Shown: positions 5,801-33,649 of the stretch, piece after piece
Numbering within the stretch: the stretch's first letter is position 1
Layout: each line of letters starts with the position of its first letter
Source of the DNA: Polytrichum commune
Lineage: Eukaryota; Streptophyta; Polytrichopsida; Polytrichales; Polytrichaceae
DNA: 64,000 nt
NCBI GenBank assembly: GCA_950295325.1
Contig: OX485805.1
Span: forward strand, 29,437,501 to 29,501,500
Reading direction: 5' to 3'
Position numbers and translations under genes: made by a program
Notes under the pieces: generated by a model
The model's database searches: none
The model's input: only the letters and a program-made list of their open reading frames with translations
Told to the model about the DNA's origin: nothing

Positions 5801-5884
5801 TGTCAGCAGTGGGGTTTGAACCCACGCCCCCTTACGAAGACCAGAACTTGAGTCTGGCGCCTTAGACCACTCGGCCATGCTGAC
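5801..5884 (-). tRNA. tRNA-Leu(CAA), nuclear type
   Basis: On the minus strand the gene reads from 5884 to 5801. The acceptor stem GTCAGCA/TGCTGAC is perfect, with discriminator A. The anticodon arm CCAGA-CTCAAGT-TCTGG gives anticodon CAA, which reads UUG. There is a class II long variable arm and the T-arm GTGGG-TTCAAAC-CCCAC contains the internal B box. A run of six T on the transcribed strand (5775-5770) lies about 26 bp downstream and would stop RNA polymerase III. The 84-nt length and sequence match the plant nuclear class, not the plastid trnL-CAA. No intron and no CCA are encoded. Confidence 0.95.
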
Positions 5885-8130: not shown

Positions 8131-9074
8131 TCATCGATTTAGAATGAAATAGGTTCATTTGATGTTGGTTTTTCTAATGGGGACCAGGACCATGTTACTA
8201 TATATGAAGAGCATGCAGCTCAATTTATTGCTACCATGAGCTTTTTTAAGGCTTTAATTATTAGTACAAGGTACAATGGCATGCTTGTCCATCCATTATG
8301 GGTAAAGTTTGGTGACACGTGTCATTCGGGGAAGAGTGAAAACTCAAAGAAACATTGTATACTAGAGGAATCATTTGTATTTTAAGAAAGTTGATCTCCA
8401 AATTGGCGGGGTCGATGACTGATTTGGGAGAACCAACCCATACACTCGTTCCTTGTTGGATGCCTGAACCTTTGCCTACAAGGAACGAGTATACATGTTG
8501 TTTTGCTTCAGTTGTTGATGACCTCGATTTAGTTTAAGTTGTAAAAGTCAATGGGATGAAGTAGCAACAAACTTGGGTGGAACATGATTTCACCAAATCC
8601 CCGATGGTACAGTCCACCCTTGATGTACCCAAAAACCTCCCTGGACACTTGTATGTATTAGAGTCATCCATAATGACTCTCAATGAGGGATGAAATCATG
8701 GGTTTGAATTAGATCATTCTTTGAGAAAACTTTCTATTAAGAGTTTGCTAGCTCAGTGCGTTTCATAGCTTATTTTGAATGTTGGGTGCAAATTTAGGAC
8801 GTCCTCCTCCCACCTCTCAAACCTTGAGAGAATTTTAAGGTCTAAAAAAGAGTATGCGCATGGGGACTGTTGTCCTAAATCTTGGATCAACCAATGCAAG
8901 GCTAGCTTGCCTCAAGTAGGACAAGCTAGAAAAGCCAATTTTTTTTATAGCCCGACACCAATCCTTGTGAATGATAATTTAAGCATTAAGAAAACGTGAG
9001 TGACTTTGTGTTAACTCACATAAACTCATGGTTTGGGACTAAACCCATGATTTACTTTACGAATTACTCTACCA
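8131..9074. other. Intergenic
   Basis: A short hairpin at 8440-8500 pairs CACTCGTTCCTTG with CAAGGAACGAGT, and its text (GAACCAACCCATACA) resembles the ends of the fold-back elements at 14.4 and 19.5 kb. No gene is seen. Confidence 0.4.
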
Positions 9075-9183
9075 CATGTTCTCCCTCTTTAGTATGACAC
9101 GTTTGGGAAACACAAAAAGGTCTTATTATCGAGGTGTCGTCTTCTCATTATTATGACAAATGGCGTAAAGTTGTCATATTATT

Positions 9184-9268
9184 GGCCGGGGATTCGTGGC
9201 ACTCAAGTAAAGTCATCCGGTAACGAAAATCGGATGAGTCCATCTAGAAGCTCGGATGGAGCTTACTT
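9184..9268 (+). repeat. Left terminal inverted repeat of the MULE
   Basis: Pairs with 12762-12846. Shared text includes CACTCAAGTAAAGTCATCC and AAGCTCGGATGGAGCTTAC. It is preceded directly by CATATTATT. Confidence 0.9.
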
Positions 9269-9747
9269 CTAATAATATCAATGACCATGCTTCACCCAAG
9301 ATTATCAAGCTGCATCTGCTGATAAGAGAATAAACATGATATAATATTTGATTATTCCCAGCCCTACCCAATTAACCATGGTATGGACATAACGTTGTAT
9401 GACACTACTTATAGTTACCATCATCCTTTGCACCAATTTTGGAGCCTCTGCTTTCAATGTATGTCTATTATATTAGGGTAAAGGATTTAGAAACTAGGTT
9501 TTCTATATACATACAAGTCTCCTTCCATGCTCCTCATTTGTGTCTATGTTTTAACAACAGCTTAATCCTTCCCTGGATCCTTGCATTTTCTGACAGGAAC
9601 CAAAATTTGCAGAGTACCCATTACCATCACCTGATCCGAAGGCAATGTTGAAGAGGTTATGTCCAATTCAATTGTTGAACATATAGGTTTATGCAAGCAT
9701 AATCTCTCCAAGTGTGCACACGTGACTGACAGTAAATGCGTAGATCT
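9269..9747. other. MULE interior, possible captured exon at 9598-9657
   Basis: On the plus strand TTTTCTGACAG is followed by an open stretch reading EPKFAEYPLPSPDPKAMLKR and then GAG/GTTATG, which looks like an internal exon between an acceptor and a donor. I do not recognise the protein. It could be a second captured gene fragment or chance. Confidence 0.25.
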
Positions 9748-9753
9748 TTTATT
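9748..9753 (-). terminator. Putative poly(A) signal of the NIP gene
   Basis: AATAAA on the minus strand, about 300 bp beyond the NIP stop codon and still inside the MULE. The intervening 9754-10050 is the presumed 3' untranslated region. Confidence 0.4.
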
Positions 9754-10050
9754 CACAATTGTCTGTATGCATGTACATGAATTGATGCCTGCTACCTATC
9801 TACTATAAAGCACACTAACTCTGTCTTGTACAACTAACAACTATAATGTCCCTATGTAGTGTCGTGGCGAACTGCTGAGAGGAGCCGGGAGTTTTGACGG
9901 AAGGTTCTCAAAGAAGTCTTTGGAAGTCAGTTAATCACCTTGTACAGGGAGGTTGTGCTGACGTGTAGCTGAGGTAACGTCCTAGGCAGACAAACTGATG
10001 ACGTGTCATCTGAGTTGGAGAATTCTAACTCTTGTTACACTGCACTATGA

Positions 10051-11787
10051 TCAGCAACCGGGCTGTCTGTTGGCAGGTTTTTGGTCACAGGCGGAGCCTT
10101 CTTCCTCTGGGAGGCGGATGAGACTGTAGCTTAATGCTCCGGCTGCAGCACCCAGAATTGGACCGACAATATACACCCACAGGGCATGGTAGTTCAGGGA
10201 CACCATTGCTGGGCCGATCGACCTTGCGGGGTTCATCGATGCTCCGGAAATTGGCCTGCGACGGGTGCAAACATGCCAATACTCAATGATTAGAGAGTTA
10301 CTTAAGGTAGATCGATCAGTGATCGGGGAGATTTTTGGACATAACCGGTTGACATCCTAGTGTTTGCATGTCCAACCGGTTACATGTTGACATCCTCCGG
10401 TTTTCCATTCTAAGTTCAATTGTCAACATGATTTCTGGGATCAACAAGAAGTATGAGGCAAACGACTACGGGCACAATTTGGAGTTGCTAATTAATCATC
10501 TCGTACAACACATGCACGCATTGATCCGAATGTTTGTCCAAATGCAAGTTACGGTTATGGAACTTACTTGGCCATCATGACATTTAGTGCAATCGTGGAG
10601 CCAACGGCGATTCCTGCCAATTTGCCGTGCTGCAAAGCAGACCAAAACAACACATAAGTCCAATGAACCTACTCAAGGGGGGACCGAGGTTTTCAAATGG
10701 GGGCTTTCAAATGGCGCTAGTCACCAAATGTTTTCATGAATATGATTACATGGCCTGTATGAATATCTTTACATTCATTACCAAAGTGAAGATTTTTTCG
10801 AGTTTCTTCTTGAACGATCGTATAGATCCCCCAATTACGTTGACCATCTGAGCTCGAATCATCAACGATTTCTTAACATGCAGTCCAATCTTTCTTAAAC
10901 TCATGTCTTGGGTGGGGGACCTACAGTATATGACCAATTTGATGAGCACGAGAACCTTCACTCTGATAATGACGAAGATGTTCTTCAGGGCTCCAGGAAT
11001 TGCGAGGAAAGTGGCGACGGTCTCGACTTGAATTTGCTTATTACCACCTTGCACTAATCAACCGCGTGTTTCATATCCTAGGACAAGTGGGCTCGTCGGA
11101 AAAAGTGACCATTTAAAAGTCATCTACCTTAGTGGTAACTTTTAATCAAGTTTCGATGAAAAGGGTATAATTAAGGAGGAGGCGATCACGTACCGATTGT
11201 GTGTCGGTGGTGACTGCGGAGACGACGAACATGAGAATGAAGGTGATGATGATCTCCAGCACCAGCGACTGCACGTCGCTTCCCGACGGCAACGTCGCGC
11301 CCAAGAAGGCCGCCGGAGGCAAGATCAAGCCGAGCACGAACGATGCCGCGACCCCCCCTGCACACTGGGCCACCACATACATAGGCACCTGGTGCCACGG
11401 GAAGTGCTTGGTGACCGCGGACGCGATGGTGACCGCGGGGTTCATGTGAGCTCCCGAGATGTGGCCCACGGTGTAAATCATGGCCGCCACCACGAGCCCG
11501 AACGTGAGGGCAACACCAACATGCGTGACCACCCCGCCCCGCAGTGCGTCCACCATGATGGCCCCGCACCCCGCGAACACCAAGATGAATGTGCTAATCA
11601 GCTCGGCCATTCCCTTCTTCAGCGGAGCGATCCACGGTCTTCGGGTCTCGTACGACGACCCTGCGGGGTGATCTGCTGAAGAATTCGGCTCAATGGGGTC
11701 ATCGTGGGTACGAGATAATCTTCCCACTTTGTTCCCGAGGGAGGAGCGGGAGGGCACGGCCGGCATCTGAATTCGGACGTCTGCCAT
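10051..11787 (-). CDS. NIP-type aquaporin (nodulin-26-like), 3 exons
   Basis: Exons 11787-11194, 10629-10568 and 10255-10051 splice with GT-AG borders in phase (0, then 2) to 286 residues, the normal NIP length. The start is the ATG at 11787, because the open frame extends upstream only by a non-ATG codon. Six hydrophobic segments are visible (for example [19 protein letters not shown] and [16 protein letters not shown]). Both half-helix motifs are intact: [10 protein letters not shown] (N116) and [10 protein letters not shown] (N227). By spacing to AQP1 the selectivity filter is F96, V215, A224, R230, so F-V-A-R. NIPs are membrane channels for glycerol, metalloids, ammonia or water; the substrate here is unknown. 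The gene lies wholly inside a Mutator-like element, yet the reading frame is undamaged. The introns carry repeat families A and B. Confidence 0.9.
10300..10410 (-). repeat. Repeat family B fragment next to and in NIP intron 2
   Basis: Contains GATCGGGGAGATTTTTGG, CATAACCGGTTGACATCCTA and TCCAACCGGTTACATGTTGA, matching 32100-32215. It lies in the NIP intron 10256-10567. Confidence 0.55.
10745..11135. repeat. MITE family A, internally inverted copy in NIP intron 1
   Basis: 10745-10905 reads as the minus orientation (CTTTACATTCATTACCAAAG, CAATTACGTTGACCATC), while 10915-11135 reads as plus (GATGAGCACGAGAACCTTCA, GTTTCATATCCTAGGA, CATCTACCTTAG at the end). Either two copies inserted tail to tail or one rearranged. 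It occupies most of the 564-bp intron 10630-11193. Confidence 0.6.
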
Positions 11788-12070
11788 TTGTGTTATTTTG
11801 TGTCGATCGTTGGCTGTTGCAGTGATGATTCTCAACTTTGTGACAAACTTCAAACCGACAACCCCTGCCTTCTCTTTATTAATGGCAAACACGATGATGT
11901 TTAGTCTTCAAATTACCAGGTAATCAAAAAACTGTGGGTCTTGATACAAATTACAATGAGGGCGTTCTTGATTTCTCTCAACGTTTTGAGCAATGATATT
12001 GGTGGGTTAATGATATGGGATTCTGTTCAGGAAAATACAAAAGGTTTACCAACATATAACAATGGTCACC

Positions 12071-12078
12071 TTTATATA
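12071..12078 (-). promoter_or_regulatory. Putative TATA box of the NIP gene
   Basis: TATATAAA on the minus strand, about 285 bp before the NIP start codon, which would give a 5' leader of roughly 250 nt. It lies within the MULE. Promoter activity is inferred from the motif and its position only. Confidence 0.45.
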
Positions 12079-12139
12079 GTAGCTAGGTTTCCAACTTTAT
12101 TTTTACTTTATTCATTAAAGGTTCTGTTTATGCTTTGGT

Positions 12140-12205
12140 TTTACTTTTACTTTTACTTTTACTTTTACTTTAATTGTACTTCTACTTTTACCTTTACTTT
12201 AAACC
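12140..12205. repeat. (TTTTAC)n microsatellite in the NIP upstream region
   Basis: Near-perfect TTTTAC/CTTTTA hexamer repeats, degenerating to CTTCTACTTTTACC towards the 3' end. About 70-130 bp upstream of the TATA motif. Confidence 0.8.
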
Positions 12206-12761
12206 TTAAAGTTTGGCGCATTTCTTTTCACTTCAGTAAACATTGAATTTTTTTACAAGGTAACAAGATCACATTTCTGGTGTTATATTTGATATTTACT
12301 TTGTGTACATACCATTGGCTTAATATGCCCGAATCAGTAAACAACACGTCACAGTTGATGGGGTCACATGTGTTTAAACGTGTGTTCTGATTTAACAGAT
12401 TGTCATCAACTGCACCTATGAGCAGTAGACACGTGGGATCACCCTATTGGTGGGAAGTTCATATTTGTCGTTGATAATAAATAAATTCCACATGGCCTTT
12501 TGTTATAATTTCATGATCATCTTCAAGCTTCCATTTGATTGTATTTGTATGCAAGTATTCTCTCCTAAGCTCCCTGCCATAATGATCATGTGGAATTCAA
12601 TGCCACATCATGGCCTTGGAAACAATTACTCATGGGAGGTTAGAAAATAGCCTTAGAGCATCCAAGGCCACATCATTGCCCCTTGCCAACTAATGAATAT
12701 TTATAAAATAACTATGAGGGAGAAAATAGGTCTTACATGCCAACTCGGAGGTGTTTCACTA

Positions 12762-12846
12762 AAGTAAGCTCCATCCGAGCTTCTTGATGGACTCATCCGA
12801 TTTTCGTTACTGGATGACTTTACTTGAGTGCCACGAATCCCCAACC
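12762..12846 (-). repeat. Right terminal inverted repeat of the MULE
   Basis: Inverted partner of 9184-9268, followed directly by the second CATATTATT target copy at 12847-12855. Confidence 0.9.
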
Positions 12847-13092
12847 CATATTATTGAGGAAATACGACAACATAAGTAATATGAGCTTAAAAATATATAC
12901 AACGAGTTTAAGCAATATAGATGGTATGAAATAATAACTTAGAACTCCCAAAAAACAAAAATATTCTCAAGAACACTTGAAACAAAAGTCCAAATTTACA
13001 CCAAACTGCCTGATCATGTCCATTCTTACACTAGTAACCCTAATTCTCATTAAATTCCCAATGATAAATGAAGTTCCCAAATAATTCCCAAG

Positions 13093-14353: not shown

Positions 14354-15755
14354 AGGGGACGTTAAACCCCTCCCCCCCTCCTCTCAGTTGGGGCGAACCA
14401 ACCCGTACATTGGTTCCTTGGAGGCAAGGGTTTAGGCATTCAACGCGGAATGAGTGTATGGGTTGGTTAGCCCAAATCTTCCCCTCTCCCTATGAGCTTT
14501 TCAGGGAGGTGGATAGAGGCCGGGATAACCCCCTAGAAAAATTCAAGATTTTTTTGGAACCGACTGGAAATTGTTGCATGTCTTGCCCGACTTTAAAAAA
14601 CACATTGCCCTTGCATTTTTGAAGGTTGCTTGTCCACAATTTCCCATATTGAGTGCAGTTCACCTGCAGGGTCAAAAATCCAATGTATGTGTGCATTTCC
14701 ACTTAATAAACAAGCAATTGATTGGGATTTCATTTCCAGCATAAACCCTTTAATAAACCATGTGATTGACTTGGAAGTTAGAAAAAATAATGTGAAATCC
14801 TCATTAGCATTGAGGTTAAAATTTGTGTGACTTACCAATTTAAAGGGTCTTTGTCATTCTAGAATGAGACTTAAATTAGTGTGTTGGTTTTGGTATGTGT
14901 ATTTTATAATAGTTTAGGTAATGCCTTCTACTTTCACAAGTATTCATACACATTCAAACGAATTCTGTGTGATTAATTGTAATCAAGCATATTTAGCCTT
15001 ATTAAGCTTGATGAATCTAATTAAGCCCGATTAAGCCTAATCAAATTAGAAATTGTGCTCACCAAACTGATTAACCCTAATTAATTTTCAAATGCACTTA
15101 CATGTATTGATTATGATTCAATTCAGAGATAGGAAATGATGTGCTTAATTACACTTGTTTAGGCTTCATTCCACTTAATTAGGTTTAGTGTGCTTACTTG
15201 CACTTAATCAGGCTTAATTAGTTCGAACGTGCATGTTTAGAAACTTAGGCCATGCGCTCAATTATGTTCTATTACAGCTATCTACGCTTAATTAGTTTGA
15301 ATGCGTATGAATACTTGTGAAAGTAGAAGCCATTACCTAAAATATCATAAATCACACATACTAAAACCAACACACCAATTTAAGTCTCATTCTAGAACGA
15401 CAAAGACCCCTTAATACTAATGAGGATTTCATATACTTTTTTCTTACTTCCAAGTCAATTACATGGTTTATTAAAGGATAATCTTTGAAAATGAAATCCC
15501 AATCAATTGCTTATTTACTAAGTGGAAATGCACACATATATTGGATTTTGGACCTTGCATGTGAATTGCACTCAATATGGGAATTGTGGACAAGCAACCT
15601 TCAAGAATGCAAGGGTAATGTCTCTTTTAAAGTTGGGCGGGACGGGCAACAATTTTGAGTTGAGTTCAAAAAAATCTCGAATTTCTTCTAGGGGAATACC
15701 ATGGCCCCTATCCACCTCTCCCTAGAAGCTCGTAGGGGGAGGTTTAGTGTCCCCC
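14354..15755. mobile_element. Fold-back Mutator-type element, about 1.4 kb
   Basis: The ends AGGGGACGTTAAACC and, inverted, GGGGGACACTAAACC are flanked by TTTATGTAC (14345-14353) and TTCATGTAC (15756-15764), 9 bp with one mismatch, pointing to the Mutator superfamily. The left arm runs to about 14962 and the right arm from about 15292; shared blocks include CAAGCAATTGATTGGGATTT, TTCTACTTTCACAAGTATTC and CATATTGAGTGCA. The right arm lacks about 100 bp present in the left. The loop (14963-15291) is rich in (C)TTAATTAGGCTTA-like repeats. Small open frames in the arms are not genes. Confidence 0.7.
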
Positions 15756-18884: not shown

Positions 18885-19109
18885 TTTGGTTACTTATCCT
18901 AATTACACACCAAAATAACAAGTGTTTAAGTAAAATCTAATTGCATGCTCCTAGACATAATTTAGGACCATTAAGAAAATAGAGATCTTCACTTTGATAA
19001 TGAATATGGTACTCATATGAGCTCTGAAAAGTACAAGGAAAGTGGCTTCAACTTCAATATACCTTTGCCAATCATCATGCATTTAATCATATGTTTAATA
19101 TCCTAGGAG

Positions 19110-19137
<28 letters not shown>
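18885..19137 (+). repeat. MITE family A, internally deleted copy
   Basis: Begins CCCAATTTGGTTACTTATCC, contains GATCTTCACTTTGATAATGA and ends TATCCTAGGAGAATTAGATG...GGCTACCTTA. About 100 bp shorter than the consensus. Confidence 0.55.
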
Positions 19138-19149
<12 letters not shown>

Positions 19150-19547
19150 GGTTACTCCCGGCATTTACATATGCTTGGATGAATTTCTTCACTTCACAAG
19201 TAGAAACAAGGTATCGAAATGACACAACCATCTAACACGAAGTATAATCTACTTATGCTTTGACATTTAGATGTTGTTTACACCAGGGACCATGAAGTCG
19301 TCCCAATGCCCCATAAAATTTGTGATTGGTTGTTGAACTCGTCATGGGACCACTTCGGTTTACACCAAGAAAAAGATTGTCAAAGTGACCATGGAGTTCG
19401 AGGTCTCCAAAAGACATATTTTAAGACCCACATTATCCATTGACATGGTCCAACGGATATTACAGTGGGAGAGGCAAAAGAAGTGCTCTAGTAGAAAAAG
19501 GCAAGGGCCGATGGCAGAGAAATGTTGTTAGAATAAAGAAATGTTGG

Positions 19548-20130
19548 GGCGAACCAACCCGTACATTGGTTCCTTGGAGGCAAGGGTTTAGGCATTCAAC
19601 ACGGAATGAGTGTATGGGTTGGTTAGCCCAAATCCTCCCCTCTCCCTATGAGCTTTTTAGGGAGGTGAATAGAGGCCAGGACAACCCCCTAGAAAAATTC
19701 AAGATTTTTTTGAACCTGACCGGAAATTGTTGCATGTCCTGCTCGACTTTAAAAAACACATTGCTCTTGCATTCTTAGAGGTTGCTTGTCCACAATTCCC
19801 ATATTGAGTGCAGTTCACCTACAGGGTCAAATATCCAATATATGTGTGCATTTCCACTTAATAAACAAGCAATTGATTGGGAGTTCATTTCCAACTTAAA
19901 TCCTTTAAATAAACCATGTAATTGACTTGGAAGTGAGAATGAAATATGTGAAATCCTCATTAGCATTGAGGTTAAAATATGTGTGACTTACCATTTTAAA
20001 GGGTCTTTGTCATTCTAGAATGAGACTTAAATTGGTGTGTTGGTTTTAGTATGTGTGTTTTATGATATTTTAGGTAATGGCTTCTACTTTCACAAGTATT
20101 CATACGTATTCAAACGAATTATGTGTGAAC
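19548..20130. mobile_element. Half copy of the 14.4-kb fold-back element
   Basis: Nearly identical to 14392-14960 (both start TTGGGGCGAACCAACCCGTA and end near TATTCAAACGAATT). No opposite arm was found. It is followed directly by a coding remnant. Confidence 0.65.
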
Positions 20131-32769: not shown

Positions 32770-33649
32770 CTGTTCTCCCTCTTTAGTATGATACGTTTGG
32801 GAAACATGAAAAGTATATTATCGAGGTGTCGTCTTCTCATTGATGTGACAAATGGCGTAAAGTTGTCGTATGATTGAGGGAATACGAAAATGTAAGTAAT
32901 ATGAGCTTGAATATGTATACAATGAGTTTAAGCACTATAGATGGTATGAAATAGTAACTTATAACTCCAAACAAATACAAATATTCTCAAGAACTCTTGA
33001 AATAGGAATCCAAAGATCTATGGTGTTGTCTACCCATTTTAGCACTTGTCATCTTATCTAAATTCCTTACTAATTTTTGAAAACTAAGAATTTCATTAAC
33101 ACCAAAATATAAAGAGTTCTCTAATAAGAAACTAGACAATAATGATGCATGACGTTTAGCATCACTAACTTTACATGTAGGCGGAACAACATCATCAACA
33201 TCTACTGAACGTAGATCAACATTAAGATCGAGAAGCGAGATTGGGAGTGAGACTAGTATGGAGTACTGCAAGATTAAATTGGAGACTACAAGAATGTAAG
33301 AGAGTGCACAAGATGTTGGTGATACTATACCACCCATGTATAATGCAACGTACTACGCAAGGCGCCACCCTAACCCTAACCATGTCCATTCTACACTAGT
33401 AACCCTAATTATCATTAAGTTCCCAATGATAAGTGTAGTTCCCAAGTGAAAATGGATGTATTTTAGATGTACATAACATAGATGAAAGGAATTGTAGCAT
33501 TAACTACCTCTTTAATATGACAAAACGAAGATTCTAAATGTCGTATTATCGAATGTTGTAGTCATATAAAAGAGGGATTGAACTAAAAAATTTGGTCTTG
33601 CAAAAATGTGTCGTAATATCAAGGGTGTTGTATTAACGAGGTTAGACTG
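32770..33649. mobile_element. Pogo-like (Tc1/mariner) element, copy 2, 880 bp
   Basis: Flanked by TA on both sides (32768-32769 and 33650-33651), as this superfamily requires. The right end, inverted, reads CAGTCTAACCTCGTTAATAC; the left end reads CTGTTCTCCCTCTTTAGTAT. CAGT..AACCTC ends with nearby ATTATCGAGGTGTCGT repeats are the plant pogo/Lemi style. It retains the unoccupied sites of the MULE (32867-32875) and the hAT (33439-33446) found in copy 1. Confidence 0.75.
32987..33337 (-). pseudogene. C-terminal remnant of a pogo-type transposase
   Basis: A 116-residue open frame on the minus strand. Its second half has DDVVPPTC, a run of alternating hydrophobic residues (ASLLSSFLLEN), FQKLVRNLDKM and a RQHHRSLDSYF ending. 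Pogo/Tigger DDE transposases end the same way: a helix pair, then a Lys/Gln-rich segment and xIxxFF/SYF. The catalytic DDE part is missing, so the element cannot move itself. The first 40 residues match nothing and may be chance. Confidence 0.5.

Follow-up and report, generated by a model that had tools for sequence, protein, structure and literature searches.

A Mutator-like element with a complete, intron-containing NIP aquaporin gene and its donor locus in Polytrichum commune

Introduction

Can a transposon relocate an entire gene in working order? Pack-MULEs, the Mutator-like elements (MULEs) that carry captured host DNA, are treated in most accounts as vehicles of gene fragments; those of rice were reportedly treated by Jiang et al. 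2004. We address the question with a locus in the window, i.e., the whole stretch of 64,000 nucleotides of Polytrichum commune DNA analysed here, which lies on contig C3 of the searched genome (408 Mb, 64 contigs). The first-pass annotation of the window had proposed that a Mutator-like transposon at this locus carries a full aquaporin gene of the NIP type. A single assembly contains the captured gene, the donor, a paralogue of greater divergence, an empty site and transposase-bearing relatives of the element, and the locus offers a clean case for asking whether MULEs relocate working genes.

Insertion site and termini of the element

The transposon occupies positions 9184-12846 of the window (C3:29446684-29450346) as one unit. 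Its left terminal inverted repeat (9184-9268, plus strand) corresponds to the outer 85 bp of a family terminus designated end A, and its right end (12578-12846, minus strand) comprises 269 bp of the same end A, the outer 85 bp of which (12762-12846) constitute the right inverted repeat. The two repeats are identical at 81 of 85 positions, in agreement with the ~95% identity reported for them earlier, and a repeat search delimited 93 nt at 94% identity. Within the window, the terminal 18-mer (up to 2 mismatches allowed) was found at the two ends of the element only, against a shuffle expectation of 0.00. Both ends are bordered by CATATTATT (9175-9183 on the left and 12847-12855 on the right, neither being assigned a strand), and the perfect 9-bp target site duplication (TSD) claimed in the first-pass annotation was thus recovered, with 9/9 positions matching and a length within the 9-11 bp typical of MULEs.

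The element interrupts an older repeat, a putative pogo element according to the first-pass annotation. When the two flanks were joined with one copy of the TSD, they aligned unbroken to a second, related copy of this repeat at 32771-33014 on the plus strand (246 columns, 87% identity, 2 gap columns). This copy, which holds the TSD-like CGTATGATT and no insert, represents an empty site; the host repeat is therefore continuous across the insertion, as had been suggested on the basis of a second copy at 32.8 kb.

Other features of the window include an 86-bp repeat with inverted copies at 8421-8506, 14393-14478 and 19549-19634 (~81-83% identity), a tRNA match at 5801-5884 and a short match to eukaryotic large-subunit rRNA at 19060-19215 (model positions 2193-2324 of 3401).

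The NIP gene inside the element

The gene is encoded on the minus strand by three exons, i.e., exon 1 at 11194-11787 (594 nt, with the start codon at 11787-11785 and the first NPA motif), exon 2 at 10568-10629 (62 nt) and exon 3 at 10051-10255 (205 nt, with the second NPA motif and the stop codon included), which are separated by introns of 564 and 312 nt with GT..AG borders. Its coding sequence comprises 286 codons without internal stops, and the product retains an intact MIP domain (Pfam, E 4.4e-59) and both NPA motifs. The full NIP gene with three exons, two introns and a stop codon, as described in the first-pass annotation, is thus present. The closest solved chains are those of Aquaporin NIP2-1 (7nl4 and 7cjs). 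At the positions assigned to the selectivity filter on an alignment with these two chains, the residues of the NIP product are predicted to be F-V-A-R; the filter of NIP group I is W-V-A-R.

The TATA motif and poly(A) signal noted previously are also there, as motif matches only: TATATA is located 291 nt 5' of the ATG (window 12078) and AATAAA 297 nt 3' of the stop codon (window 9753). GC content is 62% in exon 1, 44% in the whole cargo and 41% in the window. Each of the two introns contains pieces of dispersed repeats that have many matches elsewhere in the genome, at 10313-10409 (94-98% identity for most) and at 10910-11133 (74-79%).

Donor locus and a third copy

The captured host DNA (9267-12575, no strand assigned) is 94.4% identical to C3:29536641-29539910 in inverted orientation, over 3331 columns including 83 gap columns, and the match runs from edge to edge of the captured segment. 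The parental NIP locus, which the first-pass annotation had proposed to look for, lies ~86 kb from the element, on the same chromosome and in the opposite orientation, and no family end was found in 6 kb around it. The first 2 bp (TT) of the captured segment overlap the left repeat and represent an overlap between end A and the donor at the left junction; the right inner junction was placed to within ~10 bp. Besides the gene itself, donor DNA of ~790 bp on the upstream side and ~780 bp on the downstream side was carried along, the upstream region lying at 11788-12575 on the minus strand and including the TATA-like motif described above. The earlier claim that the gene has its own promoter holds in the sense that this upstream DNA is present, and its meaning is limited to that putative promoter DNA.

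The donor adjoins a tandem NIP paralogue with 75% protein identity over exon 1. In the region C3:29531065-29539910 (L001, L002), the two genes of the pair share one orientation; the first is apparently intact, its three exons looking open, and the second is the donor, which carries a frameshift. We also considered the donor as the derived copy, and this was ruled out, as the window copy has a TSD in an interrupted repeat and the donor sits beside a tandem NIP paralogue.

Three near-identical NIP copies appeared among the scored genome matches, namely the window copy, the donor on C3 and a copy on C4. They were sought by a protein search in which all 31 candidates were scored and by DNA searches in which the best 40 of 56, 396 and 4055 candidates were scored. 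Ends of the MULE family were detected around neither the donor nor the C4 copy, the window copy alone possessing them, and the window element was the only NIP-bearing MULE among the best-scored genome matches. Relative to the in-frame majority, the element copy has no coding indels. In the donor, a single C is missing from codon 12 (corresponding to window 11754), which causes the frameshift; the open stretch upstream of the frameshift contains no in-frame ATG, and a Met in the proper frame is first encountered at residue 60. The donor thus appears to be damaged, yet not certainly dead, since a start at residue 60 would cost the N-terminal tail and keep the NPA motifs; an assembly error is also possible.

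In the C4 copy (C4:27433528-27436276) the reading frame is kept, with an 18-bp in-frame duplication right after the first NPA motif and one extra codon; this copy corresponds to 9607-12248 of the window, ending inside the captured segment. The possibility of this copy being a second transposon-borne NIP was examined and rejected, as its match to the family end is 12 bp at most and neither paired repeats nor a TSD occur at its breakpoints. Other matches of its left flank are only 62-63-bp pieces on C4, and its right flank is an unrelated dispersed repeat (best 40 of 146 candidates). At the left breakpoint (L003 2020-2031), the preceding 8 bp are GGCCGGGG, identical to the outermost 8 bp of the tip of the MULE family, and next to them stands ATTC, which belongs to the region upstream of the NIP gene. 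On both strands, one occurrence of this 8-mer was counted in L001-L003 and one in the remainder of the window, and no right tip or TSD for the C4 copy was found near the breakpoints.

The transposon family

Other copies of the end sequence, for which the first-pass annotation had suggested a genome search, proved to be abundant: the exact terminal 18-mer occurs 806 times (400 and 406 on the two strands), whereas the reversed control yielded 0. Ten family loci comprise six complete members of 1.41-1.45 kb, two without end B (L007, L013) and two partial ones, one interrupted by ~3.8 kb (L009) and the other incomplete in the sequence examined (L012). In the six complete members, a long end A is paired with a different end B, the two being alike in the outer 26 bp only; their TSDs are perfect in three, 8/9 in one and unrecognisable in two (5/9 and 4/9). 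A short class of ~246 bp has perfect 9-bp TSDs in 3/3 members examined. The NIP-bearing element has end A on both sides (the outer 85 bp on the left and 269 bp on the right) and no end B.

Among 100 of the 806 tip places listed, all on C1, 30 facing tip pairs lie less than 30 kb apart. They are 210-249 bp in 23 cases, 1.41-1.44 kb in four and more than 11 kb in three, one of the latter being 25.5 kb; no facing pair of 2-10 kb was seen among these 100 places. As the survey covered only these places and the ten loci, the family may include further Pack elements.

Two long members, C1:11696204-11707747 (11.5 kb) and C1:27685811-27700409 (14.6 kb), bear the family tips, perfect 9-bp TSDs (2/2) and matches above the cut-off to the MULE transposase domain PF10551 (E 1.0e-7 and 1.7e-5, respectively). 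Because the long members combine the same tips, perfect TSDs and PF10551 matches, the family is Mutator-like by its sequence features, and its long members are candidate autonomous partners. One TGA lies inside each of the two PF10551 matches, and therefore neither candidate transposase is demonstrably intact. No PF10551 match fell on the NIP-bearing element itself (C3:29446684-29450346) among 142 genome matches listed (best 150 of 271 candidates).

Origin of the element

We consider, with a probability of roughly 0.85, that a non-autonomous MULE (i.e., a Pack-MULE) copied a ~3.3-kb stretch, which holds the whole gene with DNA on either side, from a NIP locus 86 kb away and inserted as one unit into an older repeat. 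The transposase of the MULE family would move such an element in trans, and the capture would have occurred when repair or replication switched templates; the latter is proposed because end A and the donor overlap by 2 bp at the left junction, the donor is nearby and the two ends are both of the end A type. One capture and insertion of the NIP gene are shown by the data. The "mobile aquaporin" of the first-pass annotation is consequently upheld for a single relocation and does not extend to the other close copies on C3 and C4, which have no ends.

Two other accounts of the termini were considered. The MULE family is abundant, and two of its ends could belong to separate elements or have been paired by chance. 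Against such a pairing, a perfect 9-bp TSD spans the two ends, the host flanks are unbroken and a related copy is empty; the captured DNA fills the space between the repeats end to end, and neither end has a partner and TSD of its own within the window. We regard a fortuitous pair as extremely improbable, and on the TSD, the empty site and the end-to-end captured DNA it was ruled out: the ends share a common TSD and a single insertion site, so that the earlier claim of one insertion instead of two elements stands. A composite origin, in which the NIP gene lay between two adjacent, oppositely oriented members of the family that were mobilised jointly by their outer ends, would account for both ends being end A in inverted orientation, and a route of this kind is described for Pack-TYPE elements in PMC8903248. 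Against it stands the absence of any family end within 6 kb around the donor, and the two shared base pairs at the left junction fit template switching too, a process that PMC8277862 describes for animal Pack-TIRs. Joint mobilisation is a possible but rather unlikely origin, and an internal loss that left 85 and 269 bp of two copies of end A, as the composite route supposes, is no less tentative. The sequence data slightly favour template switching, since the surroundings of the donor are free of family ends. Whole genes of Arabidopsis can also move by ectopic recombination between repeats, as argued in PMC2869330; the TSD at the insertion speaks against this route for the NIP-bearing element.

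Selection on the captured gene

Whether the captured gene has been maintained was assessed by comparing the three near-identical copies. The noncoding comparison used 1561 columns common to all three, columns 5 or fewer positions from a gap being excluded, and gave 27 unique changes for the element copy, 18 for the donor and 47 for the C4 copy, with 2 three-state columns; the stem leading to the element copy and the donor is counted with the C4 branch. Because they have fewer unique noncoding changes (27 and 18 vs 47), the element copy and the donor are, on these alignments, the closest pair. Substitutions distinguish the three copies at 28 codons. Coding changes were classed by hand after omission of the frameshift codon and of one codon with three states, and the unique changes (replacement/silent) numbered 3/6 for the element copy, 4/5 for the donor and 7/2 for the C4 copy. 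The share of replacement plus stop changes expected under neutrality was 0.68, as calculated from mutation rates in the noncoding columns. On this basis, the binomial P for so few replacements was 0.033 for the element copy, 0.12 for the donor and 0.83 for the C4 copy; the value for the element copy rests on 9 changes and is one of three branches tested. When scaled by the noncoding changes, the replacements expected and seen were 10.5 vs 3 for the element copy (Poisson P 0.007), 7.0 vs 4 for the donor (P 0.17) and 18.3 vs 7 for the C4 copy (P 0.002), the scaling being rough because silent changes in the C4 copy were also below expectation (2 vs 8.5, P 0.009). Between the element and C4 copies, dN and dS were 0.016 and 0.042, respectively (NG86).

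These values provide modest evidence that the protein of the element copy has been under some constraint since the capture. If so, the captured NIP may encode a working channel. It is an even chance, in our opinion, that the gene is instead a silent passenger, whose decay is yet to come. According to PMC13317346, captured sequences are usually non-functional; divergence is low in the present case (45 unique changes on the element copy and donor branches together, over 1561 noncoding columns), so the undamaged frame could be luck, and the frameshifted donor is likewise poor in replacements (4 vs 5 silent). On the other hand, replacements fall below expectation on the element branch (P 0.033 and 0.007), and coding indels are absent from the element copy, as opposed to one in the donor and two in the C4 copy. 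It is attractive to speculate further that the element copy replaced its parent, the moved NIP being maintained and the original locus having lost its normal translation start. We judge such a replacement to be unlikely, and the frameshifted donor makes it directly testable. If it were true, a MULE would have relocated a whole gene functionally, unlike the usual shuffling of fragments.

Comparison with known systems

All Pack-MULE features that were tested, namely MULE ends, a captured host gene and a donor without ends, were found in the NIP-bearing element. The Pack-MULEs of rice and other plants, as described in PMC13317346, PMC9168764 and PMC3310237, likewise combine MULE ends, a 9-bp TSD and host DNA copied from a donor in the same genome. 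The element differs from them in that its cargo is not a fragment but an entire gene, introns included, together with flanks of ~790 bp (upstream) and ~780 bp (downstream), and in having both ends of one end type. Captured fragments are usually non-functional, yet many are expressed and some show selection (PMC13317346), and functional genes have been captured by some Pack-MULEs (PMC9168764). Beyond MULEs, a maize Helitron carries an intact cytidine deaminase gene, ZmCDA3, whose transcripts had not been found according to PMC1657028. The Helitron and the present element are alike in that a DNA transposon copied an apparently intact gene elsewhere, whereas the former uses a rolling-circle mechanism and the latter has terminal inverted repeats and a TSD. 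Pack-TYPE elements that arise from neighbouring insertions resemble it in their compatible outer ends around host DNA and in being local events, but the examples cited in PMC8903248 carry gene pieces of 58-280 bp, in contrast to 3.3 kb in the NIP-bearing element. As for the cargo, rice NIP2-1 (Lsi1; 7nl4, 7cjs) is likewise a major intrinsic protein with both NPA motifs; the filter is G-S-G-R in Lsi1 and is predicted to be F-V-A-R in the NIP product.

The first-pass annotation regarded the locus as its strongest candidate for something undescribed. This was too strong, as Pack-MULEs are well described, and both the capture of functional genes and an intact gene in a Helitron have already been published; among the titles and abstract openings listed from the open-licence literature, we found no report of a complete aquaporin gene carried by a Pack-MULE. 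The TSD, the family ends, the donor and the intact frame all support the central proposal of that annotation, a MULE-type element with a NIP gene that is complete and contains introns. What is unusual in comparison with the known systems is that a complete gene was taken together with its flanks, that this gene is intact and apparently constrained beside a frameshifted donor, and that the element is bounded by two ends of the end A type.
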